NCBI RefSeq assembly: GCF_016907975.1
Contig: NZ_JAFBCY010000003.1
Location: 1-64,000 of the forward strand
Reading direction: 5' to 3'
Length of the DNA stretch: 64,000 bases
Source of the DNA: Methylopila capsulata
Lineage (GTDB): Bacteria > Pseudomonadota > Alphaproteobacteria > Rhizobiales > Methylopilaceae
The notes under the pieces were generated by a model, which was not told where the DNA came from, made no database searches, and saw only the letters and a list, made by a program, of their open reading frames with translations. The position numbers and the translations under genes are program-made. Positions 27,511-43,024 of the stretch are shown here, in pieces (the first letter of the stretch is position 1; each line of letters starts with the position of its first letter).

Positions 27511-28131
27511 TCAGTTCGGCTGCTTCGCCTTCTCGTCGCCGGGCAGCACGTAGTCCGTGCCTTCCCAGGGCGAGAGGAAGTCGAAGTTGCGGAACTCCTG
27601 GTTCAGGCGGACCGGCTCGTAGACCACCCGCTTGGACTCGTCGTCGTAGCGCACCTCGACGAAGCCGGTGAGCGGGAAGTCCTTGCGCAGGGGGTAGCCG
27701 TCGAAGCCGTAGTCCGTCAGCAGGCGGCGGAGGTCGGGGTGGCCGGAAAACAGCACGCCATAGAGGTCGTACGCCTCGCGCTCGAACCACAGCGCGCCGG
27801 GGAAAATCTCGGTGATCGACGGCACAGGCGTCTCGTCGTTCGCCTCGAGCTTCACGCGGACGCGCAGGTTCTTCGCCGGCGACAGCAGATGGTAGACCAC
27901 GTCGAACCGCTTTTCGCGCGACGGATAGTCCGCCCCGCAGACGTCGACGAAGCAGATGAAGCGGCACGCGGGATCGTCGCGCAGGAAGGTCGTCACCTCG
28001 ACGATCCGGGCGGCGTCGGTCTTCAGCGTCAGTTCGCCGAAAGCGACCGACGTGGAGACGATCGCGGAGCCGAGCCCCTGGGCGATGTGGGCTGCCAGCG
28101 TCTCGAGGACGTCGTGGGGAGAAGTGCTCAT
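27511..28131 (-). CDS. nuoC: NADH-quinone oxidoreductase subunit C
   Basis: A 206-residue 30-kDa-type subunit of the peripheral arm. [45 protein letters not shown] (about residues 112-156) contains the family signature ERE-x-DxxG and the GHPDLRR motif; only its parts are cited as evidence. The ATG at 28131 gives the normal length. It ends 100 nt before the GFA-family gene's start. Confidence 0.96.
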
Positions 28132-28141
28132 GGCTCCGCCC

Positions 28142-28711
28142 TCACCGCTCGATCGTGCCGATGCGGCGAATCTTCTTCTGCAGGAGCAGAACGCCGTAGA
28201 GCAGCGCCTCCGCGGTCGGCGGGCAGCCCGGGACATAGATGTCCACCGGCACCACGCGGTCGCAACCGCGCACCACGGCGTAGGAGTAGTGGTAGTAGCC
28301 GCCGCCGTTGGCGCAGGAGCCCATGGAGATGACGTAGCGCGGCTCCGGCATCTGATCGTAGACCTTGCGGAGCGCGGGAGCCATCTTGTTGGTCAGCGTG
28401 CCGGCGACGATCATCACGTCCGACTGCCGCGGACTGGCGCGCGGCGCAAAGCCGAAGCGCTCCACGTCGTAGCGTGGCATCGAGACCTGCATCATCTCCA
28501 CGGCGCAGCACGCCAGGCCGAAGGTCATCCACATCAGCGAGCCGGTGCGGGCCCAGGTGATGAGGTCCTCGGCCGAGGTGACGAGGAAGCCCTTGTCGGA
28601 GAGCTCGGCGTTCACCTCGCGGAAGAAGCGGTCGTCGTGGCCGATCGGCCGGCCGGAGGCGTCGACGAGGCCCTTGGGGGCGTCGGCGACCAGGGTCTGG
28701 TTCGCGGTCAT
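28142..28711 (-). CDS. nuoB: NADH-quinone oxidoreductase subunit B
   Basis: A 189-residue PSST-type subunit holding cluster N2, the last electron carrier before quinone. The tandem cysteines are in [12 protein letters not shown] near residue 63; the other ligands are in [19 protein letters not shown] and [14 protein letters not shown]. It starts 4 nt after the nuoA stop. Confidence 0.97.
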
Positions 28712-28715
28712 CGGA

Positions 28716-29081
28716 TCAATCCCACTCGAGGGCGCCCTTGCGCCACTCGTAGACGAAGCCGATCGTCAGAACGCCGAGGAAGGCCATCATCGACCAGAAG
28801 CCGAACAGGCCGACCTCCTTGAACGCGACCGCCCAGGGGAACAGGAACGCGACCTCGAGGTCGAAGATGATGAACAGGATCGCGACGAGATAGAACCGCA
28901 CGTCGAACTTCATGCGCGCGTCGTCGAAGGCGTTGAAGCCGCACTCGTAGGCCGAGAGCTTCTCGGGATCCGGGTTCTGGTAGGCGATCAGGAACGGCGA
29001 GGCCAGAAGCGCGACGCCGACGACCAGCGCCACAGCGAGAAAAATGACGAGAGGCAGGTAGTCGGCCAACAGGTTCGTCAT
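28716..29081 (-). CDS. nuoA: NADH-quinone oxidoreductase subunit A
   Basis: A 121-residue, three-helix membrane subunit and the first gene of the operon. [20 protein letters not shown] after helix 1 and [13 protein letters not shown] in helix 2 are the conserved signatures. The start [10 protein letters not shown] at 29081 gives the family length; a 25-codon upstream extension is not conserved in character. Confidence 0.97.
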
Positions 29082-29192
29082 CGCGCGCCTGAACCTTCCA
29101 TCTGTGTCGAAGACCGGGCGAGACAGCGCCGCGGCCCACGATCCAAGCTTGAACATGCGCCAAATCGGCGCGCGTCGCTCCGCACATCGGGA

Positions 29193-31697: not shown

Positions 31698-32033
31698 TCA
31701 GTGGCTGATCATCCAGGGCCGCGCGTTCGGGAAGCTCTTGGCGGCCGGCGGCTGCGCGGCGACCGCGGCCGGCGTCTTCAGGCCGCGGCCGGAGCAGCAG
31801 CCGCAACCGGGAGCGTGGCTCTTCGAGCTCTTCGGCGCATGCGACGAGCGCTCGTTGGTGGCCATGGCGATGCGGCGGGCGGGATCCATGCCGGCGAGCG
31901 CGGGCGCGGTCAGCATGACCCGCGGGGCCTCGTCGCCGCAGAGCGGGCAGGCGTGCGGATCCTGGAAAGCCGCCATCGGGCGCAGCGCGGTGAAGGGGCC
32001 GCAGTCGTCGCAGGCGTATTCGTAGACGGGCAT
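31698..32033 (-). CDS. fmdB: FmdB-family zinc ribbon protein
   Basis: A 111-residue protein. The N-terminal zinc ribbon MPVYEYACDDCGPF...HACPLCGD (Cys 8, 11, 29, 32) is typical of FmdB, first described as a putative regulator of the formamidase gene in Methylophilus. A second cysteine cluster, CGCC, is near residue 77, then an Ala/Pro-rich tail. It follows fmdA on the same strand after a 160-nt gap holding a palindromic repeat, so it is probably the last gene of the urt-fmd operon. Confidence 0.9.
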   Translation of the reverse strand: MPVYEYACDDCGPFTALRPMAAFQDPHACPLCGDEAPRVMLTAPALAGMDPARRIAMATNERSSHAPKSSKSHAPGCGCCSGRGLKTPAAVAAQPPAAKSFPNARPWMISH

Positions 32034-32049
32034 TTGAAATCTCCCAGAG

Positions 32050-32159
32050 CGTCATCCCGGACAAGCGGCGGAGCCGCGCCGATCCGGGATCGTTTTTCGA
32101 GAGAGCGCCTTTCCGGGAAACGATCCCGGCTCGCAGCTTGCGCTACGGCCGGGATGACG
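32050..32159. repeat. Palindromic intergenic repeat, GTCATCCCGG...CCGGGATGAC type
   Basis: CGTCATCCCGGACAAGCGGC and GCTACGGCCGGGATGACG are inverted ends; GATCCGGGATCGTTT and AAACGATCCCGGCT pair inside. It lies between fmdA and fmdB and belongs with 9711-9825. Confidence 0.8.
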
Positions 32160-32193
32160 GCTGCTTCCTCGGCCGCAGCGCTGAAACCGCCGT

Positions 32194-33423
32194 TCAGAGG
32201 TCCGGCGCGATCGGCATCTGGATCGAGCCGTCGATGAACTTCACCGGGCCGGCCGCGGTCGGGTTGATGTCGAACTCGAAGATCTTGGTCGGCAGCCACA
32301 GCGTGGCGCAGGCGTTCGGGATGTCGACGACGCCCGAGATGTGGCCCTGCACCGGGGCGGTGCCGAGGATCGAGTAGGCCTGTGCGCCGGAGTAGCCGAA
32401 CTTCTTCAGATACTCGATGGCGTTGAGGCAGGCCTGGCGGTAGGCGACGCCGACGTCGAGGTAGTGCTGCTCGCCGTACTCGTCGACCGAGATGCCCTCG
32501 AAGATCAGGTAGTCGTCGTACTTCGGGGTGATCACCGACGGCTTGAAGATCGGGTTCTTGATCCCGTACTTCGACATGCCGTCCTTGATGACGTCGACCT
32601 TGAGATGCAGCCAGCCGGCCATCTCGATCGCGCCGCAGAAGGTGATCTCGCCGTCGCCCTGGCTGAAATGCAGGTCGCCCATCGAGAGGCCGCCGCCCGG
32701 CACGTAGACGGGGAAGTAGATCTTGGAGCCGCGCGACAGATCCTTGATGTCGCAGTTGCCGCCATGCTCACGCGGCGGAACGGTGCGCACGGCTTCGGCC
32801 GCGGCCGCGGCCTTCGCGTCGCCGGTCAGCCGGCCCATGTGCGCGGTCGGCGCGAACGGCACGGTGCCGACCGCCGGCACGCGGTCCTTGTGCTTCTCGA
32901 CGAACGGGATCTCACGGTCGTTCCATGTCTTGAGCAGCTTCGGATCCGGCAGGCAGCCGATCAGGCCGGGATGGATCAGGCCGGGGAAGCGCACGCCGGG
33001 GATGTGGCGCGACTTGGTGAACATGCCCTCGAAGTCCCAGATCGACTTCTGCGCCGAGGGGTAGTGGTCGGTCAGGAAACCGCCGCCGTTGTTCTTCGAG
33101 AAGAAGCCGTTGAAGCCCCACTGGCTCTCGGCCTTGGCGCCGATGTCGAGCAGGTCGACGACCAGCAGGTCGCCCGGCTCCGCGCCCTCGACGCCGATCG
33201 GGCCCGACAGGAAGTGGACGATCGAGAGGTCGATGTCGCGCACGTCCGAGGCGTCGTCGTTGTTTTTGACGAAGCCGCCGGTCCAGTCGTAGGTCTCGAT
33301 CAGGAAGTCGTCGCCGGGCTTCACCCAGGCCACGATCGGGATGTCCGGGTGCCAGCGGTTGTGCACCATGTCGTTATCGTAGGCCGACTGGGTCAGGTCG
33401 ACCTTGATCAGCGTTTCGGTCAT
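32194..33423 (-). CDS. fmdA: Formamidase
   Basis: A 409-residue amidohydrolase of the acetamidase/formamidase family that splits formamide (and often short amides) to ammonia and formate. The N-terminal part (ETLIKVDLTQSAYDNDMVHNRW), GDLLVVDLLDIG near residue 105 and the PPREHGGNCDIKDLSRGS segment near residue 225, with conserved acidic, His and Cys residues, match FmdA. The ATG is at 33423. It follows urtE by 59 nt, so uptake and hydrolysis genes form one unit. Confidence 0.95.
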   Translation of the reverse strand: MTETLIKVDLTQSAYDNDMVHNRWHPDIPIVAWVKPGDDFLIETYDWTGGFVKNNDDASDVRDIDLSIVHFLSGPIGVEGAEPGDLLVVDLLDIGAKAESQWGFNGFFSKNNGGGFLTDHYPSAQKSIWDFEGMFTKSRHIPGVRFPGLIHPGLIGCLPDPKLLKTWNDREIPFVEKHKDRVPAVGTVPFAPTAHMGRLTGDAKAAAAAEAVRTVPPREHGGNCDIKDLSRGSKIYFPVYVPGGGLSMGDLHFSQGDGEITFCGAIEMAGWLHLKVDVIKDGMSKYGIKNPIFKPSVITPKYDDYLIFEGISVDEYGEQHYLDVGVAYRQACLNAIEYLKKFGYSGAQAYSILGTAPVQGHISGVVDIPNACATLWLPTKIFEFDINPTAAGPVKFIDGSIQMPIAPDL

Positions 33424-33482
33424 CTGGCAGCTCCCCTTTTTCAGTTTGTGCGTGGCGTGCGCAAGGCGCGGTCTGGCGCGGC

Positions 33483-34172
33483 TTACACCGACAGGTACTT
33501 GGACACCTGAGCCTCATCGACGTCCGCGCGCTGGGCGTCGTGGACGATCTCGCCGTTCTCGACGACCAGCACCCGGTCGGCGACGTCGAGGGCGAAGCTC
33601 AGCACCTGTTCGGAGACCACGATCGACAGGCCGCGGTCGTCGCGGATGCGGCGGAGCGTGCGGGCCATCTCGCGGATGATCGACGGCTGGATGCCCTCGG
33701 TCGGCTCGTCCAGCAGCAGCACCTTCGGCTTGGTGGCGAGCGCGCGGGCGATGGCGAGCTGCTGCTGCTGGCCGCCGGAGAGGTTGCCGGCGCGGCGCCC
33801 CTTCATCTCCAGCAGCACGGGGAACAGCTCGTAGATGTCGTCGGGCACCTTGCGGTCGCCGGAGGCGACGAGGCCGGTCTCGATGTTCTCCTTCACCGTC
33901 ATGGTGGAGAACACCATGCGGCCCTGCGGCACGTAGGCGACGCCCTTCTTCACCCGCTGGTGGCTCTTGAGGCCGTTGATGTCCTCGCCGCCGAGCCGGA
34001 TCGAGCCCGCCGTGGTCGGGAGGATGCCCATCATGGCCTTCATCAGCGTGGTCTTGCCCATGCCGTTGCGGCCCATGATCGCGACGATCTCGTTCGGCGC
34101 GACCTTGAAGTTCATGCCATGGAGCACTTCGCTCTGGCCGTAGGCGACGCGCAGGGATTCGACGTCCAGCAT
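33483..34172 (-). CDS. urtE: Urea/short-chain amide ABC transporter ATP-binding protein UrtE
   Basis: A 229-residue LivF-like ATPase. Walker A is GRNGMGKTT near residue 36, signature LSGGQQQQLAIARAL, Walker B VLLLDEPTEGIQPSI. The ATG at 34172 (MLDVESLRVAYGQSEVLHGM) gives the family length; the longer frame reads into urtD. It pairs with UrtD at the inner membrane. The C-terminus AQVSKYLSV is typical of UrtE. Confidence 0.93.
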   Translation of the reverse strand: MLDVESLRVAYGQSEVLHGMNFKVAPNEIVAIMGRNGMGKTTLMKAMMGILPTTAGSIRLGGEDINGLKSHQRVKKGVAYVPQGRMVFSTMTVKENIETGLVASGDRKVPDDIYELFPVLLEMKGRRAGNLSGGQQQQLAIARALATKPKVLLLDEPTEGIQPSIIREMARTLRRIRDDRGLSIVVSEQVLSFALDVADRVLVVENGEIVHDAQRADVDEAQVSKYLSV

Positions 34173-34183
34173 CGCTTCGCTCC

Positions 34184-34942
34184 TCAATGGCCGAGATAGA
34201 CTTCGACGACCTTGGGATCGGTCTTCACCTTCTGCATGGACCCTTCCGAAAGGATCTTGCCCTGGTGGAGCACCGTCACCTTGTGCGCGATGTCTTCGAC
34301 GAACTTCATGTCGTGCTCGATGACGAGCACCGAGCGGTTCTTGATGATGGTGTTGAGCAGCTCGGCGGTCTTGATGCGCTCGCTCACGCTCATGCCGGCG
34401 ACCGGCTCGTCCAGCATCAGCAGCTCCGGGTCCTGGATCAGCAGCATGCCGATTTCGAGCCACTGCTTCTGGCCGTGGCTCAGGAACGCCGCGCGCTCGT
34501 GCAGCTTGTCCTTGAGGAAGATGATCTCGGAGACCTCCTCCACCCGGTCCCGCACCGCCTGGTCGCGCTTGAAGGTCAGCGCGCCCCAGACCGAGCGGCC
34601 CTTCGGGTAGGAGATCTCGAGGTTCTCGAAGATAGTCAGGTCGTCGTAAATCGACGGCGTCTGGAACTTGCGGCCGACGCCCGAGAGCACGATCTGGCTC
34701 TCGCTCATCTTGGTGAGCTCCGCCCCGCGGAAGCGGATGGAGCCGGCGGTCGCCTTGGTCTTCCCGCAGATGAGGTCGAGCACCGTGGTCTTGCCGGCCC
34801 CATTGGGGCCGATGATCACGCGGATCTCGTTCTCGTCCACGTAGAACGACAGGTCGTTCACCGCCTTGAAGCCGTCGAAGGAGACGGTGAGGGCCTCGAC
34901 CGCGAGCAGGTAGTCCTTGGGAGGGGTTCCGATGGTGGTCAC
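34184..34942 (-). CDS. urtD: Urea/short-chain amide ABC transporter ATP-binding protein UrtD
   Basis: A 252-residue LivG-like ATPase. Walker A is GPNGAGKTT, Walker B LLMLDEPVAGMS; the signature is LSHGQKQWLEIGMLL, the variant seen in UrtD. DLSFYVDENEIRVIIGPNG is also characteristic. GTG start at 34942 with GAGGA upstream. It follows urtC by 10 nt. Confidence 0.94.
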   Translation of the reverse strand: MTTIGTPPKDYLLAVEALTVSFDGFKAVNDLSFYVDENEIRVIIGPNGAGKTTVLDLICGKTKATAGSIRFRGAELTKMSESQIVLSGVGRKFQTPSIYDDLTIFENLEISYPKGRSVWGALTFKRDQAVRDRVEEVSEIIFLKDKLHERAAFLSHGQKQWLEIGMLLIQDPELLMLDEPVAGMSVSERIKTAELLNTIIKNRSVLVIEHDMKFVEDIAHKVTVLHQGKILSEGSMQKVKTDPKVVEVYLGH

Positions 34943-34952
34943 GGGGCGGTCC

Positions 34953-36098
34953 TCACTCGGCGGGGGCGGTGGAGGCCGCCTGCTTGGCGACGTCGTCGCC
35001 CTGGTGCTTAGGGCGCAGCTTCAGAGCCCGGTCGATCGGCGGCTGGACGTAGTCGTTCCAGATGCCCGCGAGGCCGTTCGGGAAGGCGAGCACCACCGCG
35101 ATGAACAGGCCGCCGAGGCCGAGCAGCCAGAGCTCCGGGAAGCTCTCGGACAGGCTGGTCTTGGCGAAGTTGACCGCGAGCGTCCCGTAGATCGCGCCGA
35201 ACAGCGACATCCGCCCGCCGACGGCGGTGAAGATCACCATCTCGATCGAGGGCACGATGCCGACCAGCGAGGGCGACATGAAGCCGACCTGCAGGGTGAA
35301 CATCGCGCCGCCGAGCGCCGCGAACACGCCGGCGAGGCAGAACACGAAGATCTGGAAGTTGGCGACGGAGTAGCCGGAGAACCGTACGCGGTCCTCCTTC
35401 TCGCGCATCGCCACCAGGATGCGGCCGAGCTTCGAAGCGCGGACGAACAGCGCGAGGCCGACCACGCTCAGCAGGAGAACGACGTTCACGAAGTAGAGGA
35501 TGAACTTCGCGCTGTCGGTGCGAATGTCCCAGCCGTGCAGCGTGCGCAGGTCGGTGATGCCGTTGACGCCGCCGGTGTAGCCCTGCTGCCCGATGATCAG
35601 GATGGTCGCGATCGCCGCGATCGCCTGGGTGATGATCGCGAAGTACACGCCCGACACGCGGCGCTTGAACATCGCCGAGCCGATCACGAAGGCGAAGAAC
35701 GCCGGCACCAGGATGATCAGCAGGATCGTCAGCGGCAGCGAGTGGAACGGCTGCCAGAAGTACGGAAGCTCGGTGATCTGGTTCCAGTCCATGAAGTCCG
35801 GGATGCCGGGCGTGGACTGGATCTTGGTGTTCTCGACCGACGAGGCCTCGAGCTTGAGGTACATCGCCATGCCGTAGCCGCCGAGCGCGAAGAACACGCC
35901 CTGGCCGAGCGACAGGATGCCGCCGTAGCCCCAGCACAGCACCAGGCCGACCGCCACGAAGGCGTAGGTCAGGTACTTGCCGACGAGGTTCAACCGGAAC
36001 CCGTCGAGCAGGGCGGGAAAGACGATGAGCAGGAGGGCTGCGACGACCGCCAGGGCGAGCATGTCCCGGCGGTTGAGGAAGGAGGGCGCGGTCTTCAT
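34953..36098 (-). CDS. urtC: Urea/short-chain amide ABC transporter permease UrtC
   Basis: A 381-residue LivM-like inner-membrane permease with about ten helices. LCWGYGGILSLGQGVFFALGGYGMAMYLK near residue 53 and MREKEDRVRFSGYSVANFQIFVF near residue 235 (EAA-like coupling region) match UrtC; short parts only are cited. The MKTAPSFLNRRDM start at 36098 is 14 nt after the urtB stop. Confidence 0.94.
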   Translation of the reverse strand: MKTAPSFLNRRDMLALAVVAALLLIVFPALLDGFRLNLVGKYLTYAFVAVGLVLCWGYGGILSLGQGVFFALGGYGMAMYLKLEASSVENTKIQSTPGIPDFMDWNQITELPYFWQPFHSLPLTILLIILVPAFFAFVIGSAMFKRRVSGVYFAIITQAIAAIATILIIGQQGYTGGVNGITDLRTLHGWDIRTDSAKFILYFVNVVLLLSVVGLALFVRASKLGRILVAMREKEDRVRFSGYSVANFQIFVFCLAGVFAALGGAMFTLQVGFMSPSLVGIVPSIEMVIFTAVGGRMSLFGAIYGTLAVNFAKTSLSESFPELWLLGLGGLFIAVVLAFPNGLAGIWNDYVQPPIDRALKLRPKHQGDDVAKQAASTAPAE

Positions 36099-36112
36099 CT
36101 GGGTGTCGCTCC

Positions 36113-37039
36113 TCAGCGCCGGACTTTGAGGGTGAAGAGGCCCTGCGGCCGCAGCATCAGGATGGCGACGACGGTCAGCAGCGTGATGACCTTGGCCATC
36201 GAGCCCGAAAGGAAGAATTCGAGGGTCGACTGCGTCTGCGAGATCGAGAAGGCCGAAGCGATAGTGCCGAGCAGGCTGGTCGCGCCGCCGAAGACGACGA
36301 TCAGGAAGGTGTCGACGATGTAGAGCTGGCCGGAGGTCGGGCCGGTCGAGCCGATCATCGTGAAGGCGGAGCCCGCGACGCCCGCGATGCCGCAGCCGAG
36401 GCCGAAGGTCAGGCGATCGACCTTCTCGGTGTCGATGCCGACGGCGCCGGCCATGACCCGGTTCTGCACGACCGCGCGGACCTGCTGTCCCCAGCGCGAC
36501 TTGTACATGAGCAGCGCCACCGTGACCGTGATCAGCGTCGTCAGGCACATGACGAAGACGCCGTTGATCGGCACCTCGATGACGTCCGTCACCGGAAGCG
36601 AGCCGAGCAGCCAGTCCGGCAGCACCACGCCGACCTCGCGCGGGCCGAAAACGGACCGGTAGGTCTGCTGAAGAATGAGGCTGAGGCCCCAGGTCGCGAG
36701 CAGCGTGTCCAGCGGACGCTTGTAGAGCCGTTTGATCAGCGTCCACTCCACCAGCATTCCGAGCGCCCCGGACGCGACGAACGCGAGCGCCATGGCCACG
36801 AAGAAGTAGGCCGGGAACAGCGACGGCAGCTGCGCCTGGAAGAACTCCGAGCAGAAGTAGGTGACGTAGGCCCCGAGGATCATGAACTCGCCGTGGGCCA
36901 TGTTGATCACGCCCATCTGCCCAAAGATGATCGCAAGGCCGAGAGCCATAAGAACGTAGACGGAAAACAGGATCAGGCCGGCGAAGCCCTGCATCGCGAA
37001 GATCGCGCCGAGATCGCCAAGAGAGTAGTCGCCGAGCAT
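36113..37039 (-). CDS. urtB: Urea/short-chain amide ABC transporter permease UrtB
   Basis: A 308-residue LivH-like permease. ALGLAIIFGQMGVINMAHGE near residue 31 and TEKVDRLTFGLGCGIAGVAG near residue 205 are the conserved core. Compared with some UrtB proteins there is no long N-terminal periplasmic region. It is separated from urtA by 179 nt containing a palindromic repeat. Confidence 0.93.
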   Translation of the reverse strand: MLGDYSLGDLGAIFAMQGFAGLILFSVYVLMALGLAIIFGQMGVINMAHGEFMILGAYVTYFCSEFFQAQLPSLFPAYFFVAMALAFVASGALGMLVEWTLIKRLYKRPLDTLLATWGLSLILQQTYRSVFGPREVGVVLPDWLLGSLPVTDVIEVPINGVFVMCLTTLITVTVALLMYKSRWGQQVRAVVQNRVMAGAVGIDTEKVDRLTFGLGCGIAGVAGSAFTMIGSTGPTSGQLYIVDTFLIVVFGGATSLLGTIASAFSISQTQSTLEFFLSGSMAKVITLLTVVAILMLRPQGLFTLKVRR

Positions 37040-37079
37040 GAGCTTTCTCCGCTTCCGGACGCATCTTCAAGGAAACGGG

Positions 37080-37167
37080 CGTCATGGTCCGGCTTGACCG
37101 GACCATCCATGTCGGGCCTGGATCGCCACGCCCGGCGTGGGTCCTCCGGTCGAGCCGGAGGACGACG
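37080..37167. repeat. Palindromic intergenic repeat, TCCGG-cTTGA-CCGGA type
   Basis: Near-identical ends to the element at 8631-8720: TCCGGCTTGACCGGACCATC at the left and CCTCCGGTCGAGCCGGAGGA at the right. Placed between urtA and urtB, it could reduce downstream expression or protect the urtA mRNA, as REP-like hairpins do after binding-protein genes. Confidence 0.8.
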
Positions 37168-37218
37168 CCGCGTTTGAGGGAAGCGGGAGCGCAGACCGTC
37201 AGGCCGCGCCCCGCAACC

Positions 37219-38481
37219 TCACTGGTAGCCCTTCGGGAAGGGGTTCGGCTCGATCAGCTCGGGGCTCTCGTAGACCACCTTGAACTGGCCGTCCTTCTGG
37301 GCGAGGCCGATGCGGGTCTTGGACCAGAGGTGGTGGTTCGCGTGGACCTTGACGTAGCCTTCCGGCGCCTTGGTGAACTCGATGCCCTCAGAGGCCACGG
37401 CGATCTTGTCGACGTCGAAGGAGCCCGCCTTCTCGACGGTCATCTTCCAGATCCACGGGCCGAGATAGGCGGCCTGCGTCACGTCGCCGATGACGGTCTT
37501 CTCGCCCCACATCTTCTTGAACGCCGCGACGAACTCCTTGTTGTTCGGGTTGTCGAGCGACTGGAAGTACTTCATGCACGAGTAGGCGCCGGCGATGTTG
37601 TCGCCGCCGATGCCGTCGATCTCGTCCTCGGTGACCGAGATCGTGATCAGGGTCTGCTTCTCGAGGTTGATGCCGGCGGCCTTCAGCTGCTTGTAGAACG
37701 CCACGTTCGACCCGCCGACCACGTCGGTGAAGATCACGTCCGGCTTGGTCAGCTTGAGCTTGTTGATGACCGAGTTGAACTGGGTGTGGCCGAGCGGGAA
37801 GTACTCCTCGCCGACGACCTTGGTGCCCGTCAGGTGATTCTCGATGTGCTTGCGCGCGATCTTGTTCGACGTGCGCGGCCAGATGTAGTCCGAACCGATG
37901 AAGTAGAAGGTCTTGGCGCCCTTCTCCTTCACGACCCAGTTGATCGACTCGAGGATCTGCTGGGTGGCTTCCTGGCCGGTGTAGATGACGTTCTTCGACT
38001 GCTCGAGGCCTTCGTAGAACGTCGGGTAGTACAGCATGCCGTTGTACTGCTCGATCACCGGCAGCACGGCCTTGCGGGAGGCGGAGGTCCAGCAGCCCAT
38101 GATGGCCGCGACCTTGTCCTGCACGAGCAGCTTCTTGGCCTTCTCGGCGAAGGTCGGCCAGTCGGACGCGCCGTCTTCCTGGATGAACTTGATCTTGCGG
38201 CCGAGCACGCCGCCCATCTCGTTGATCTGCGCGATCGCGAGCTTCTCGGCCTGGATCGAGCCGGTCTCGGAAATCGCCATCGTGCCGGTGGCGGAATGCA
38301 GGATGCCGACCGTCACCTCGGTGTCCGTCACCGCGAGGCCGGTGGTGTTGACCGCGGCCGTCGCCGGCGTCTGCGCGAACGCCGTCTTCGGCATCATCCC
38401 GGCGAAAGGCGCCGCCGCCATGCCCATCAAGAGCTTGCGGCGGAGCGGCGAATGAAATCCCGTCTTGTCGTCGCGCGACAT
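37219..38481 (-). CDS. urtA: Urea/short-chain amide ABC transporter substrate-binding protein
   Basis: A 420-residue periplasmic binding protein. The N-terminus has a Tat-like signal (PLRRKLLMGMAAAPFAGM, residues 12-29) ending near AFAQ. VTVGILHSATGTMAISETG starts the mature type I fold, with GCWTSASRKAVLPVIEQYNG and YYPTFYEGLEQSKNVIYTGQ characteristic of UrtA/FmdD; short parts are cited. A GGAG ribosome site lies 7 nt before the ATG. It is the first gene of the urtABCDE-fmdAB unit and divergent from the fused sensor kinase. Confidence 0.95.
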   Translation of the reverse strand: MSRDDKTGFHSPLRRKLLMGMAAAPFAGMMPKTAFAQTPATAAVNTTGLAVTDTEVTVGILHSATGTMAISETGSIQAEKLAIAQINEMGGVLGRKIKFIQEDGASDWPTFAEKAKKLLVQDKVAAIMGCWTSASRKAVLPVIEQYNGMLYYPTFYEGLEQSKNVIYTGQEATQQILESINWVVKEKGAKTFYFIGSDYIWPRTSNKIARKHIENHLTGTKVVGEEYFPLGHTQFNSVINKLKLTKPDVIFTDVVGGSNVAFYKQLKAAGINLEKQTLITISVTEDEIDGIGGDNIAGAYSCMKYFQSLDNPNNKEFVAAFKKMWGEKTVIGDVTQAAYLGPWIWKMTVEKAGSFDVDKIAVASEGIEFTKAPEGYVKVHANHHLWSKTRIGLAQKDGQFKVVYESPELIEPNPFPKGYQ

Positions 38482-38535
38482 CAGCGTCTCCGTCAGTCAC
38501 CCGGCTCGTCGGCGAGCCCCCGAATGCCGGAGAGA

Positions 38536-38553
38536 CTGCGGTTTGTTCCGCAG
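38536..38553. promoter_or_regulatory. Small hairpin in the urtA leader
   Basis: CTGCGG (38536-38541), TTTGTT, CCGCAG (38548-38553) is a perfect 6-bp inverted repeat between the putative operator and the urtA start. It could be part of a second operator or a leader stem. Confidence 0.4.
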
Positions 38554-38561
38554 CGCAGCAT

Positions 38562-38579
38562 ATACGTCGGTTGACGTAT
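38562..38579. promoter_or_regulatory. Candidate operator ATACGTC-N4-GACGTAT
   Basis: A perfect 7-bp inverted repeat with a 4-nt spacer, in the divergent gap between urtA and the kinase gene, 80 nt before the urtA start. On the minus strand it is followed by TATATGCTG, a plausible -10 region, so a bound protein would sit at about -35. LuxR/NarL-type regulators bind such dyads, and one is encoded just downstream of the kinase. Binding is inferred, not shown. Confidence 0.45.
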
Positions 38580-38748
38580 GTCGGTCGCGCCGCCGCCGGC
38601 CCTAGGCTGCACGACGCTTGTCCGCCGCTCCCGTGATTGGGACTTGATCAGGACGGCCAATTTCTTGCATGCCACGTTCGGACGTCGGCCTGGGCCCGGC
38701 GACGAGGGGATGCACAAGCGACATGGCCATCGGCCCCAGGCGGACGGC

Positions 38749-41700
38749 ATGACCGGGCGGCAGCGCATCGTGCCTGCGCGGCGCCAATACAACCAATGGG
38801 TCGCCGACGAGACGCTCGAGGATTACGCGCTCCGCTTCACCGCGAAGAGCGCGCGCCGCTGGTCGTCCGTGCGCGTCGGCAACACCGCGCTCGGGGCCGT
38901 GTCCTTCCTCGCGCTCGAGGCGATCGGGGGCGCCATCACGCTGAGCTACGGCTTCGACAACGCGGTCGTCGCGACGCTGGTCGTCAGCGTGCTGCTGCTG
39001 CTGACCGGGCTTCCCATCGCCTATTACGCCGCCCGCGACGGCGTCGACATCGACCTCCTCACCCGCGGCGCCGGCTTCGGCTACGTCGGCTCGACCGTGA
39101 CGTCGCTGATCTACGCCTCCTTCACCTTCCTGCTGTTCGCGATCGAAGCCGTGATCATGGCGCTCGCGCTGGAGCTCTGCCTCGGGGTGCCGCTGGCGCT
39201 GGGCTACGTCATCAGCGCGCTCGTCGTGCTGCCGATCGTCACGCACGGCATCAACTGGATCAGCCGCTTCCAGCTCTGGACCCAGCCGATCTGGCTCGTG
39301 CTGCATCTGACCCCGATCGTGTTCATCGCCTTTCAGGACACCTCGGCCTTCGCCGACTGGACGGCGTTCCAGGGGACGAGCCCGAACGGCGGAGCGCTGA
39401 ACCTGATCGCCTTCGGCGCGGCGAGCTCGGTGGTGTTCGCGCTGATCGCCCAGATCGGCGAGCAGGTCGACATCCTGCGGTTCATGCCTGCGAAGACTCG
39501 GGAAAACCGGCTGGCGTGGTGGTCGTCGCTGCTCGCCTCCGGCGCCGGCTGGATCGTGCCCGGCGCCCTCAAGCTCCTGCTGGGCTCGTTTCTGGCCGTG
39601 CTCGCGCTCAACCACGGCGTCCCGGCCGAGCGCGCGAGCGAGCCGACCCAGATGTACGACGTCGCCTTCGGCTACGTGACCTCGTCGCCGCAGTTCGCGC
39701 TGGCGCTCACCGGCGTCTTCGTCGTGCTGTCGCAGCTCAAGATCAACGTGACCAACGCCTACGCCGGCTCGATCGCCTGGTCGAACTTCTTCTCGCGGCT
39801 GACGCACGCCCATCCCGGACGAATCGTCTGGCTGGTGTTCAACGTGGCGATCGCCCTCATCCTGATGGAGGCGGGCATCTACAAGACGCTTGAGCACACG
39901 CTCGGGCTCTACTCGATCGTCGCCGTCGCATGGGTCGGCGCGCTGGTGGCCGATCTCGCCGTGAACAAGCCGCTCGGCCTGTCGCCGCCGCGGATCGAGT
40001 TCAAGCGCGCGCACCTCTACGACGTGAACCCGGTCGGCGTCGGCGCCATGACGCTCGCGACCCTCGCCGCATTCCTCGCCTATTCCGGCGCCTGCGGCCT
40101 CACCGCCAAGGCGCTCGCCCCTTTCGTCGCGCTCGGCGTCGCCTTCGTGACGGCGCCCCTGATCGCCGCCGCGACCCGCGGCAAGTTCTATCTTGCCCGA
40201 AAGCCGCGGGCGCACTGGCGCCTCCAGCCGACGCTGCGCTGCTCGATTTGCGAGCACGGCTTCGAGTCCGAGGACATGGCGCACTGCCCGGTCTACTCCG
40301 GCCCGATCTGCTCGCTCTGCTGCTCGCTCGACGCGCGCTGCCGCGACGGCTGCAAGCCGCACGCCCGCCTCTCCAGCCAGGTGGTGGGCGCCTTGACCGC
40401 CGTGCTTCCCGCCTGGGCGGTCGGAGGCCTGAATTCGCGCGCGGGGCACTACGTCGGCGTGATGACGTTGCTGGGCGGCGCGCTCACGCTGGTGCTGCTC
40501 ATCGTCTACGTCCAGGCGGCGGCCGAAGCGCCCGAGCAGACCACCGTGATCGGCGGCGCGCTCTCCGCCGTCTTCCTCATCCTGATGATGATCGCCGGCA
40601 TCGCCGCCTGGCTGTTCGTGCTGGCGCATGAGAGCCGGGAGATCGCGCAGGACGAATCGGGCCGGCAGACGGCGCTCCTGATGAAGGAGATCGAGGCCCA
40701 CAAGCGCACCGACGCCGCGCTCCAGCGGGCGAAGGAGGTGGCGGAGGCCGCGAACGTCGCGAAGAGCCGCTATGTGGTGGGCATCAGCCACGAGCTCCGG
40801 ACGCCGCTCAACGCCGTCATGGGCTACGCCCAGCTGCTCGACGCCGACGAAACGCTGCCGCCCCGCGGCCAGAAGGGCGTGCGGGTGATCCGCCGCTCGG
40901 CCGAGCACCTTTCCGGCCTGATCGACGGCCTGCTCGACATCTCCAAGGTCGAGGCCGGCCGACTGGAGCTCGCCCGCAACGAGGTCCGCACCCGCGACTT
41001 CCTCGACCAGCTCGCCGACATGTTCCGCCTCCAGGCCAACGCCAAGGGGCTCGAGTTCCGGTTCGACGGCGCCGAGCGGCTGCCGGCGGTGGTGCGCTGC
41101 GACGAGAAGCGCGTGCGGCAGATCCTGATCAATCTGCTGTCGAACGCCGTGAAGTTCACCGACGCGGGCCATGTCGCGCTGCGGGTCTCCTACCGCAGCC
41201 AGATCGCGGAGTTCACGGTCACCGACACGGGGGCCGGCATCCGGGTCTCCGACCGCGAGCGGATCTTCGAGCCCTTCGAGCGGGGCGAGGCGACGCGCGC
41301 CAAGCTCCAGCCCGGGATGGGGCTCGGGCTCACGATTACGAAGCTGCTGGTCGAGATCATGGGCGGCGACCTGACGCTCGAGAGCGTCGAGGGCGCCGGC
41401 AGCACCTTCCGGGTGAAGCTGATGCTCTCCCAGGTGGCCGCGCCGCGCCCCTCCCCCGCCCCGCAGGCGCGCGCGGTGGGCTACGAGGGTCCGCGCAAGC
41501 TGGTGCTGGTGATCGACGACGACGGCGACCACCGCGAGCTGATGCGCGAGGCGCTGGAGCCGATCGGCTTCAATGTGATCGCCGCCCCCGACGGCGTGGC
41601 GGCCCTGACGCTGGTCGACGAATGCCGGCCGGACCTGTTCCTGCTCGACGTCTCGATGCCCGGAATGTCGGGCTGGGACGTCGCGCGCAGGCTGCGCGAG

Positions 41701-42120
41701 ACCGGGCATGTGGCGCCGATCCTGATGATGTCGGCGAACATCGGGGACTTCGCGTTGAAAGCGGTCGAAACGCCGGACCACGACGGCGCCCTTCCGAAGC
41801 CCTGCGACCTCGGCGCCCTGCTTCGCCAGGTCGAGACGCTGCTCGACCTCGTCTTCGTCTACGACGCGCCGCCTCCGGCCGCGCCCCCGGCGCGGGCGAA
41901 GCCCGAACTGCCCGGTCCCCGGCATGTGGGCGATCTGCGGAGGCTCGGCGAGATGGGCTACGTCCGTGGGATCGAGGCGAAGCTGGCGGAGCTCGAGCAG
42001 GTCGAGCCCGGGGTCGCGCCCTTCGTCGCCGAGGCGCGGGAGCGGCTTCGGGCGTTCGACATGAACGGCTACATGGCGCTGCTCGGGACCCGTGCGCCGG
42101 AGGAGACCGCCGATGGCTGA
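38749..42120 (+). CDS. NCS1 transporter-like hybrid sensor histidine kinase
   Basis: A 1123-residue fusion. Residues about 15-490 form an NCS1 (purine/cytosine/allantoin permease-like) transporter domain starting YNQWVADETLEDYALRFTA. Residues 498-535 are a segment with eight cysteines in CxxC, CPVY and CSLCC arrangement. Then two to three more helices, a HisKA domain with SHELRTPLN (His 681), an HATPase (NLLSNAVKF near residue 795; GMGLGLTI), a receiver domain with LLDVSMPGMSG (Asp 967), and a helical C-terminal region. The ATG at 38749 follows AGGCGG; a longer upstream frame lacks support. Divergence from urt-fmd suggests it senses an amide, urea or related N compound. Confidence 0.88.
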   Translation: MTGRQRIVPARRQYNQWVADETLEDYALRFTAKSARRWSSVRVGNTALGAVSFLALEAIGGAITLSYGFDNAVVATLVVSVLLLLTGLPIAYYAARDGVDIDLLTRGAGFGYVGSTVTSLIYASFTFLLFAIEAVIMALALELCLGVPLALGYVISALVVLPIVTHGINWISRFQLWTQPIWLVLHLTPIVFIAFQDTSAFADWTAFQGTSPNGGALNLIAFGAASSVVFALIAQIGEQVDILRFMPAKTRENRLAWWSSLLASGAGWIVPGALKLLLGSFLAVLALNHGVPAERASEPTQMYDVAFGYVTSSPQFALALTGVFVVLSQLKINVTNAYAGSIAWSNFFSRLTHAHPGRIVWLVFNVAIALILMEAGIYKTLEHTLGLYSIVAVAWVGALVADLAVNKPLGLSPPRIEFKRAHLYDVNPVGVGAMTLATLAAFLAYSGACGLTAKALAPFVALGVAFVTAPLIAAATRGKFYLARKPRAHWRLQPTLRCSICEHGFESEDMAHCPVYSGPICSLCCSLDARCRDGCKPHARLSSQVVGALTAVLPAWAVGGLNSRAGHYVGVMTLLGGALTLVLLIVYVQAAAEAPEQTTVIGGALSAVFLILMMIAGIAAWLFVLAHESREIAQDESGRQTALLMKEIEAHKRTDAALQRAKEVAEAANVAKSRYVVGISHELRTPLNAVMGYAQLLDADETLPPRGQKGVRVIRRSAEHLSGLIDGLLDISKVEAGRLELARNEVRTRDFLDQLADMFRLQANAKGLEFRFDGAERLPAVVRCDEKRVRQILINLLSNAVKFTDAGHVALRVSYRSQIAEFTVTDTGAGIRVSDRERIFEPFERGEATRAKLQPGMGLGLTITKLLVEIMGGDLTLESVEGAGSTFRVKLMLSQVAAPRPSPAPQARAVGYEGPRKLVLVIDDDGDHRELMREALEPIGFNVIAAPDGVAALTLVDECRPDLFLLDVSMPGMSGWDVARRLRETGHVAPILMMSANIGDFALKAVETPDHDGALPKPCDLGALLRQVETLLDLVFVYDAPPPAAPPARAKPELPGPRHVGDLRRLGEMGYVRGIEAKLAELEQVEPGVAPFVAEARERLRAFDMNGYMALLGTRAPEETADG

Positions 42121-43024
42121 GGGCGCGCCCATCGTCGTGCTGGTCGTCGACGACAGCCCGGAGACGCTCGGGATGCTCACCGAAGCGCTCGAGCGCGCCT
42201 CCTGGACGGTGCTGGTCGCGCCGGGAGGCGCGGAGGCCCTGCGGGTGGTCGACCGCGTGACGCCCGATGTCGTGCTGATGGACGCGGTAATGCCGGAGAT
42301 GGACGGCTTCGAGGCCTGCCGACGCCTGAAGCGGCGGCCGGACATGGCGCATGTCCCGGTGATCTTCATGACCGGCCTGCGCGAGACCGGCCACATCGTC
42401 CAGGGCCTGGAGGCGGGCGGCGTCGACTACGTCGCCAAGCCCGTGGCGCTGGACGAGATGATGGCGCGCATCCGCGTCCACATCGGCAACGCGCGGCTCT
42501 CCAGCAGCGCCCGGGCGGCGCTCGACACCACGGGACGCTATCTGCTGGCTGCGGGCGAAGACGGCCGGCTGCGCTGGGCGACGCCGCAGGCGGGGCGGCT
42601 GCTCGCCCGCGCCTTCTCGGGATTCGACCAGGATACGTTCGATCTGCCGGAGCCGGTGCGGGCCTGGCTCGCTGCGCGCGTCGCCGGCCGCACCGAACAG
42701 CCCTCGGCGCCTCTCGCCGGGGACGGCCCGGCCCAGCTCACGCTCGCCTTCGTCGGGCGCACAGAGCGGGGCGAGACGCTGTTGCGGGTGACCGAGGAGG
42801 CGCCGTCGGGCGAGTGGCCGACGCTGCGCGCGAAGCTCGGCCTTACGGCGCGCGAGGCCGAGGTGCTGCTCTGGATCGCGCGCGGCAAGGCCAACCGCGA
42901 CATCGCCGAGATTCTCGGCATGAGCCCGCGCACGGTGAACAAGCACCTCGAGCAGATCTACGTGAAGCTCGGCGTGGAGAACCGCGCCGGCGCGGCAGCG
43001 ATCGCCGTCCGCACGCTGGGCTGA
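42113..43024 (+). CDS. LuxR-family response regulator
   Basis: A 303-residue regulator. Residues 7-120 are a receiver domain with VLMDAVMPEMDG (phosphoacceptor Asp 57) and the conserved FMTG and Lys (AKPV) positions. Residues about 125-235 form a linker not recognised as a domain. Residues about 243-295 are a LuxR helix-turn-helix (LTAREAEVLLWIARGKANRD, then RTVNKHLEQIYVKLGV). The start overlaps the kinase stop by 8 nt and has GGAGGAG upstream, so the pair is coupled. It is the likely output of the fused sensor. Confidence 0.92.
   Translation: MAEGAPIVVLVVDDSPETLGMLTEALERASWTVLVAPGGAEALRVVDRVTPDVVLMDAVMPEMDGFEACRRLKRRPDMAHVPVIFMTGLRETGHIVQGLEAGGVDYVAKPVALDEMMARIRVHIGNARLSSSARAALDTTGRYLLAAGEDGRLRWATPQAGRLLARAFSGFDQDTFDLPEPVRAWLAARVAGRTEQPSAPLAGDGPAQLTLAFVGRTERGETLLRVTEEAPSGEWPTLRAKLGLTAREAEVLLWIARGKANRDIAEILGMSPRTVNKHLEQIYVKLGVENRAGAAAIAVRTLG

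Follow-up and report, generated by a model that had tools for sequence, protein, structure and literature searches.

The 64,000-nucleotide stretch analysed here (the window) is positions 1 to 64,000 of contig NZ_JAFBCY010000003.1 of Methylopila capsulata (GCF_016907975.1), and it carries a urea/amide operon, urtABCDE-fmdAB, that is divergent from the genes of a hybrid sensor kinase with a transporter-like sensor half and of a LuxR-type response regulator (table 1). On the minus strand between 31698 and 38481 lie seven genes, urtA to urtE, fmdA and fmdB, the product of each scoring above the curated cut-off of its NCBIfam model. The complete operon described in an earlier reading made from the sequence alone (the sequence-only reading) is therefore present as claimed. 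All five subunits of UrtABCDE exceed the urea-transporter cut-offs, although these models do not separate urea carriers from amide carriers, as UrtA, UrtB, UrtD and UrtE of a urease-type transporter at a related locus (L037) pass them too. Three urease alpha genes (on C2, C3 and C4) are found in the same 4.1-Mb genome, and a search of it for a urease-type urtA at E up to 1e-120 returned none.

The kinase gene is separated from the operon by 267 bases. We set its start at the ATG at 38749, given that GRQRI or its equivalent is directly preceded by a start codon in most relatives; a longer open reading frame from 38578 is, judged by the same start codons, probably over-extended. HisKA, HATPase_c and receiver domains all score above their Pfam cut-offs, which makes the protein a hybrid histidine kinase. 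The regulator combines a receiver with GerE, as in the NarL/FixJ (LuxR-type) family (Pfam), and its ATG at 42113 falls 8 bases inside the kinase gene, which stops at 42120. We take SPRTVNKHLEQIY to be its recognition helix. The domain order given by the sequence-only reading (a transporter-like half, eight cysteines, HisKA, HATPase and receiver) is confirmed, and so is the coupled LuxR regulator.

Table 1. Features of the urea/amide operon and of the divergent kinase-regulator pair (window coordinates)
Feature	Position	Strand	Basis
fmdB, FmdB-type zinc-ribbon protein (RPWMISH)	31698..32033	-	NF053663 and TIGR02605 above cut-off
fmdA, formamidase	32194..33423	-	NF045496, 744 bits (cut-off 500); PF03069
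urtE, ABC ATPase	33483..34172	-	TIGR03410, 336 bits (cut-off 285.8)
urtD, ABC ATPase	34184..34942	-	TIGR03411, 373.8 bits (cut-off 304.1)
urtC, permease	34953..36098	-	TIGR03408, 430 bits (cut-off 296.2)
urtB, permease	36113..37039	-	TIGR03409, 400.8 bits (cut-off 250.3)
urtA, substrate-binding protein	37219..38481	-	TIGR03407, 539.7 bits (cut-off 492.75)
Palindrome TACGTC-GGTT-GACGTA (arms extend to ATACGTC/GACGTAT), predicted operator	38563..38578	.	Dyad search, locus scan
NCS1-fold hybrid sensor kinase, 1123 amino acids	38749..42120	+	
NCS1-fold (LeuT-type) transporter-like domain, ends approximate	38806..40198	+	AlphaFold2 model of sensor half, Foldseek
Eight-cysteine finger CxxC-x11-C-x7-CxxCC-x5-C-x3-C, predicted two-zinc treble clef	40240..40353	+	Invariant in relatives examined
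Two more probable transmembrane helices before kinase core	40408..40626	+	Model helices 563-592 and 594-663; hydrophobicity by eye
HisKA domain (SHELRTPL)	40762..40959	+	PF00512, E 5.3e-16
HATPase_c domain	41101..41427	+	PF02518, E 6.3e-26
Hybrid-kinase receiver domain	41503..41832	+	PF00072, E 1.4e-21
LuxR/NarL-type response regulator, presumed recognition helix SPRTVNKHLEQIY	42113..43024	+	PF00072, PF00196

Relatives of the kinase were examined together with their surroundings (L-numbers are labels of fetched loci and G-numbers those of genomes sampled). The first set of 127 loci consists of the window, 46 further matches at E < 1e-100 in 199 genomes of the host order (L031-L076) and the best 80 of at least 594 relatives from a species-genome collection (L083-L162); the non-kinase NCS1 matches L077-L082 were left out of the count. 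Methylorubrum aminovorans (L152) and Sinorhizobium fredii USDA 205 (L148) are among the carriers. We call a locus type A when its urtA match is nearer the window's urtA, type B when it has a second, urease-type urtA, 35-40% identical to the window's, type C when it contains fmdA-amiS-fmdB and type D when it is linked to urease. Seventy-eight loci are type A, 41 are type B and eight are beside neither urtA, these eight being the type C loci L073-L075, L086, in which the kinase is divergent from the gene of the aliphatic amidase AmiE, and four that end with their contigs and could not be judged (L076, L114, L137 and L151). Every one of the 123 judgeable kinase loci adjoins urea/amide genes (78 type A, 41 type B, three fmdA-amiS-fmdB and one amiE).

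A sample of the phylum gave kinase matches at 57 places in 52 of 398 genomes, and 20 of these places, chosen as low in identity, second copies or oddly built rather than at random, supplied further loci, which are mostly divergent: seven type A (urt-fmd), three type B, one type C and nine type D. UreC or UreA was confirmed by hidden Markov model in six of the nine type D loci, and at four loci (L218, L219, L220 and L224) the stretch contains urease genes but nothing matching urtA. The co-occurrence survey that the sequence-only reading had named as its refuting test thus finds the pairing to recur, in all 123 judgeable loci and in the 20 further ones. These loci are related by descent, and the shuffle statistics given below ignore kinship.

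The partner genes vary within each type. FmdA is not seen in eight of the 78 type A loci, seven of which are on stretches of 7 to 14 kb, and an AmiE match lies within the stretch in 30 of the 78. Type B looks like a urease-type urea transporter: at L037, the sole type B locus scanned, UrtB has an N-terminal extension, and UreA and UreC occur in 14 and six of the 41 type B stretches, respectively. At L073-L075, and also at L235, formamidase is encoded downstream together with an AmiS/UreI channel and FmdB; the type C NCS1-finger kinase is shorter, and in L073 and L074 the gene after it encodes a second protein, made up of receiver, HisKA and HATPase domains. The urt-fmd operons of Zhongshania and Alcanivorax contain, between amiE and fmdA, the gene of an AAA+ ClpB-like protein of about 340-350 amino acids (L094:2479-3501 and L108:2721-3779; AAA_2 and ClpB_D2-small in L094).

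Within the host order, kinase matches were found in 48 of 199 genomes, three of which (G031, G055 and G121) have weak non-kinase matches only, leaving 45. The window-type urtA (E up to 1e-100) is present in 21 of the 199 genomes, and all 21 carry the kinase. The urease-type urtA (E up to 1e-120) is present in 106, with the kinase adjacent in 22. Urease alpha was found in 127 of the 199; among the 21 type A genomes G118 is the one without it, and none of the 22 type B kinase genomes lacks it. Because urease-type urtA and urease are widespread without the kinase, the kinase is not a general companion of urea use.

The intergenic region between urtA and the kinase contains a palindrome that starts 82 bases upstream of the urtA start codon. 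We had noticed this inverted repeat by eye shortly before a motif-naive dyad search, in which exact inverted repeats in urtA-kinase intergenic regions were compared with Markov shuffles and no motif was named. In the 87 of 119 regions counted after removal of near copies, the TACGTC dyad with a gap of four bases is present in 39, against 0.0 expected from shuffles. With one mismatch allowed, the window has no second match to the palindrome (0.04 expected), and the genome has no second exact copy. Two one-mismatch copies, at C2:986389 and C2:1069088, lie near genes that are by eye unrelated to urea or amides, and we took them as chance because at two mismatches the genome holds 42 matches to the pattern and 36 to a reversed control. 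A scan of 38400-38800 for sigma-70 promoters found none.

With up to two mismatches allowed, the motif precedes all 41 first-set type B operons (29 exact), where shuffles give fewer than one per group. The same test finds it in none of 32 urease-type urtA regions from kinase-less genomes (32 of 71 such genomes, taken largely in rank order). It is also absent from eight of eight regions before unlinked urease-type urt genes in kinase-bearing genomes (eight of 13 such genomes), and we accordingly rejected unlinked urt as a target in trans. In 11 loci (L042, L048, L056, L067, L113, L125, L141, L144, L147, L148 and L159) the spacer between urtA and the kinase exceeds 700 bases, and in all of them the best site lies within 300 bases of the point where the urtA alignment begins, with 590 bases or more between it and the start of the kinase, from which we conclude that the palindrome goes with urtA. 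These results bear on the possibility that the pair has another target and owes its place next to the operon to inheritance alone. Common descent of many loci is the one point in favor of this, the evidence being computational throughout, but a palindrome that remains close to urtA even where kilobases separate the kinase from it, that is missing from all 32 kinase-less urt operons and that has a single exact copy in its own genome makes such an explanation extremely improbable.

The regulators themselves support the assignment of the palindrome. The residue x in SPRTV-x-KHLE is N in 78, D in 28 and T in 12 of 118 regulators, the T state having arisen in two separate clades. In the 108 rows where a loose test finds a site, N is accompanied by the half-site GACGTA in 66 of 68 and D or T by its absence in 36 of 40, and in the further loci the TC/GA half is retained with six of the nine N-type regulators that have a palindrome. 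This covariation of helix and half-site is supportive of a regulator that reads the palindrome, while not being universal, and binding of the palindrome by the regulator is strongly indicated by the combined comparisons. Based on co-occurrence, the operator palindrome and helix covariation, the kinase-regulator pair very probably controls urtABCDE-fmdAB. The control proposed by the sequence-only reading is accordingly upheld by computation, with exceptions to the covariation.

Several observations weigh against this reading. First, 84 of the 106 genomes with urease-type urtA have no adjacent kinase, so that the transporter does not need it. Second, the motif at up to two mismatches is found in only 34 of the 78 first-set type A loci (17 exact, shuffles again giving fewer than one per group); in many of the remainder, which belong to Bradyrhizobium and Methylobacterium clades, variants such as ATACGCAAGATTGCGTAT are seen, a few have nothing clear, and even by the loose test nine of the 118 loci with a regulator lack a clear site. 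Third, among the 20 further loci the motif is found in six of seven of type A, none of three of type B, none of one of type C and none of nine of type D. Three of these type D loci (L226, L229 and L230) have a reversed operon that does not start at the gap searched, so that its own promoter lies outside the search, and the three type B loci (L227, L228 and L231) have other palindromes of the TACG...CGTA kind. Fourth, those same three type B loci have N-type regulators without the expected half-site (three of nine). Finally, the regulator tree needs only four residue changes and yields three independent pairs, two in favor, none opposite and one without difference, and with three pairs only the independent-pair test cannot reach significance. 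In type C no such palindrome was found, and the second protein, with its receiver, HisKA and HATPase domains, is not a LuxR-type regulator. A palindrome-like TACGCC-N4-GGCGCA was seen upstream of the kinase at the urease-linked loci L219 and L224.

The fold of the sensor half was assessed with an AlphaFold2 model (mean predicted local distance difference test score, pLDDT, 77.7; predicted template modeling score 0.77). In a Foldseek search of PDB the top matches were CodB (7qoa, E 9.4e-11) and Mhp1 (2jln, E 7.7e-10), chains of which occupy ranks 1-5. NCS1 structures outrank those of SLC5 (SSS), with DUR3 at rank 6 and a sialic acid symporter at rank 8, which argues against SLC5 membership; no STAC domain occurs among the Pfam matches of 31 members, the presence of a STAC model in the library being unchecked. 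At the sequence level the sensor resembles two stand-alone proteins at E about 1e-23, and L077, the one tested, passes PF02133 (29.1 bits against a cut-off of 23.5). A mixed profile of five kinases and six stand-alone relatives reaches CodB at 9.4e-20 and Mhp1 at 6.5e-15, a match that the stand-alone rows help. On the other side, PF02133 (NCS1) is not matched at gathering score by the window kinase or by the sensor half of any of 31 relatives, and sequence searches of PDB gave no match for the single window protein or for a kinase-only profile. We accept the NCS1 label despite the silence of Pfam because the fold model and the bridging stand-alone relatives agree, and the sensor almost certainly has an NCS1 fold with a sequence distant from known transporters. 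The NCS1 permease half of the sequence-only reading survives as a fold, whereas its label is without Pfam support and the certainty first attached to it has been corrected. L077:2296-10727, which encodes a stand-alone NCS1 protein with a CxxC...CxxC tail that is among the nearest non-kinase relatives (L078 looks alike), carries on the opposite strand an AmiR_N/ANTAR regulator and a Peripla_BP_5 (AmiC/UrtA-like) binding protein.

Between the sensor and the kinase core stand eight cysteines, which keep an identical spacing over a 38-residue span in 126 of the 127 kinases (the sequence of L114 ends before the finger), in all 20 further loci and in 52 aligned sequences. No Pfam family was recognised in this segment, and a profile of it gave 20 matches in 101 genomes of the host order, all within these kinase reading frames. 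Such invariance would be compatible with a segment that does most of the sensing itself, its input being redox state, an iron-sulfur centre or zinc. However, by our own assignment the cysteines fit two four-cysteine zinc sites, and the model (pLDDT 80.5) shows a hairpin and then a helix. No fold match reaches significance (best PDB E 0.45), the top-ranked ones being mostly structural zinc fingers (FmdE, RING, FYVE and PHD), and the stand-alone protein of L077 has a CxxC...CxxC version without any kinase. We therefore regard the cysteines as very unlikely to be the main sensor and a structural zinc finger as the simplest and probable reading of the model. Of the zinc or iron-sulfur centre with redox input suggested by the sequence-only reading, zinc finds some likeness in these insignificant fold matches and the redox input is unsupported.

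The genes that recur beside the kinase (urt-fmd, urease-type urt, urease, fmdA-amiS-fmdB and amiE alone) share a chemistry, in that their substrates urea, formamide and acetamide have the common form H2N-C(=O)-X. For this reason urea or a short-chain amide is favored as the ligand, and we consider such a ligand likely, although it is read from gene neighbors, which counts against it. The sequence-only reading had proposed an amide, a ureide or a pyrimidine; the partner genes favor the first and make ureides and pyrimidines less attractive. In Pseudomonas veronii Yu15, according to the excerpted text, amiE, fmdAB and urtABCDE are clustered and acetamide and formamide serve as nitrogen sources, a plasmid acetamidase operon also being present (PMC13209695).

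The pocket residues were compared with those of Mhp1. Columns aligned with the Mhp1 pocket are highly conserved. Glu132, which aligns with Mhp1 Gln121, does not vary among the 122 type A-C kinases whose sequences extend over it. At column 128, the counterpart of Mhp1 Trp117, 75 of 78 type A kinases have Phe (the window kinase has Leu) and 38 of 41 type B kinases have Leu. Asn335 aligns with Mhp1 Asn318, and the adjacent Thr334 is Thr in all 78 type A kinases and Met in 38 of 41 of type B. Nine sensor columns separate the main type B clade, two of them at the positions of column 128 and Thr334. These patterns would fit a ligand bound in the usual NCS1 site, with a putative shift between amide-linked and urea-linked members. 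The alignment of transmembrane helix 6 to Mhp1 is ambiguous, as a six-residue gap can be placed in several ways, and for Gln234, Glu237 and Gln238 we report conservation only. The invariant Lys330 aligns with Mhp1 Ser312, presumably a sodium ligand, and K or R also occupies this column in the stand-alone relatives. The excerpted text on CbrA describes transport driven by the proton motive force and a lysine, K196, seated in the Na2 site (PMC13022988), and by analogy the parallel with Lys330 is suggestive.

Two other accounts of what the NCS1 domain senses were weighed against these data. It could recognise a ring compound that yields urea, such as hydantoin, allantoin, uracil or cytosine, the operon then being induced indirectly. 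The nearest solved NCS1 structures are indeed cytosine and hydantoin transporters, the stand-alone protein of L077 adjoins hydantoinase A and B genes, and relatives of those hydantoinases (about 33% identical to those of L077) occur in two of 147 stretches, L098 and L104. However, no hydantoinase match occurs at the other 145 of the 147 loci (the search did not extend to pyrimidine and allantoin genes), the genes that keep recurring are urt, fmdA, amiS, amiE and urease, and the columns of Mhp1 Trp117 and Gln121 are Phe/Leu and an invariant Glu, so that we consider a ring compound unlikely. Alternatively, the domain could read transport flux or contact the Urt transporter as a co-sensor, with no small ligand at all, which the tight pairing with urt operons would accommodate. 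This is at odds with L218, L219, L220, L224, L086 and L073-L075, which pair with urease, amiE or fmdA-amiS and have no urtA match in the fetched 8-10 kb or so on each side, and with the conserved Mhp1-pocket columns, and we hold co-sensing to be rather improbable. Direct binding of urea or a short-chain amide remains our preferred reading.

We propose that the divergent gene pair would constitute a dedicated two-component system in which the kinase uses its NCS1-fold domain as a receptor (a transceptor) for urea or a short-chain amide. Motion driven by the ligand would pass through the cysteine finger and the two extra transmembrane helices to the HisKA core, and phosphate would then be handed to the co-encoded LuxR-type regulator, possibly via the receiver of the kinase itself. 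The regulator would bind the palindrome at 38563-38578 and control urtABCDE-fmdAB, most likely as an activator. Taken as a whole, a transceptor kinase for urea or short-chain amides that controls its neighboring operon is a probable account of the locus.

A FastTree phylogeny of 126 sensors (midpoint root, some long branches) places type B within type A, with two changes of the label, at least one of them forced by well-supported branches, and type C on one branch. If type A is ancestral, the system would have moved to a different operon, one that in the first set is preceded by the palindrome. We lean, by a modest degree, toward a broader hypothesis: that these proteins form a widespread proteobacterial family of NCS1-fold transceptor kinases acting as membrane receptors dedicated to urea and small amides, rewired among urt-fmd, urt, urease, amidase and formamidase-channel operons, with the operator kept in most urt lineages and with signaling through a finger found so far only in this family. 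Elsewhere in the window, genes of respiratory complex I subunits at 27511-29156 (Complex1_30kDa, Oxidored_q6 and Oxidored_q4) are unrelated to the urea/amide locus.

The characterised transporter-fused kinases that we encountered are few and are linked to histidine, acetate, pyruvate and ammonium. NCS1 would be another transporter family among them, and one with many natural examples (kinase matches in 45 of 199 genomes of the order and in 52 of 398 of the phylum). With a predicted operator at hand, signaling from a transporter fold to a kinase becomes directly testable, and so does the sensing of urea and formamide by soil bacteria. Among the matches listed in the open-access literature we found no description of an NCS1-kinase fusion, a weak negative given that subscription literature lay mostly outside the search; in the available part of one kinase review NCS1 occurs only in a thesis title in the reference list (PMC8399564).

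The closest parallels among sensors are CbrA and the CrbS/RpuS kinases, in which, in the excerpted text, a LeuT-fold transporter is fused to a histidine kinase, and CrbR of the CrbS system is a LuxR-family regulator that acts via an inverted repeat (PMC13022988, PMC5715377, PMC9100948). The K196 of CbrA in its Na2 site is matched by the invariant K330 of the window kinase at the Mhp1 Ser312 column. Those proteins differ in combining SLC5 with STAC, in place of which the present kinases have NCS1, an eight-cysteine finger with two transmembrane helices, and urea/amide partners. Ks-Amt5 is alike in using a nitrogen transporter fold as the receptor of a fused histidine kinase, and it is described in part of the source as binding and not translocating ammonium; it differs in its Amt fold and its ligand (PMC5764959). 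Mhp1 and CodB share the fold, with Asn335 of the kinase equivalent to Mhp1 Asn318, and differ in having no kinase and in the pocket columns (Gln121 to Glu132, Trp117 to Phe/Leu). For the operon, a comparable transporter is the short-chain amide/urea ATP-binding cassette (ABC) system of Methylophilus, the gene name of which we take to be FmdDEF. That system is represented by a title cited in PMC10781810, and blr0968-0973 of B. japonicum form a urt-like ABC operon that also includes formamidase and amiE and was proposed to carry amides (PMC3098086); both differ in that the passages concerned mention no kinase (PMC10781810, PMC3098086). In Ectopseudomonas guguanensis G3 a hybrid histidine kinase and a LuxR regulator accompany urtABCDE operon III, and although the available text names the pair generically and does not discuss an NCS1 domain, a finger, an operator or a function, this is probably a locus of the same kind (PMC13296017).

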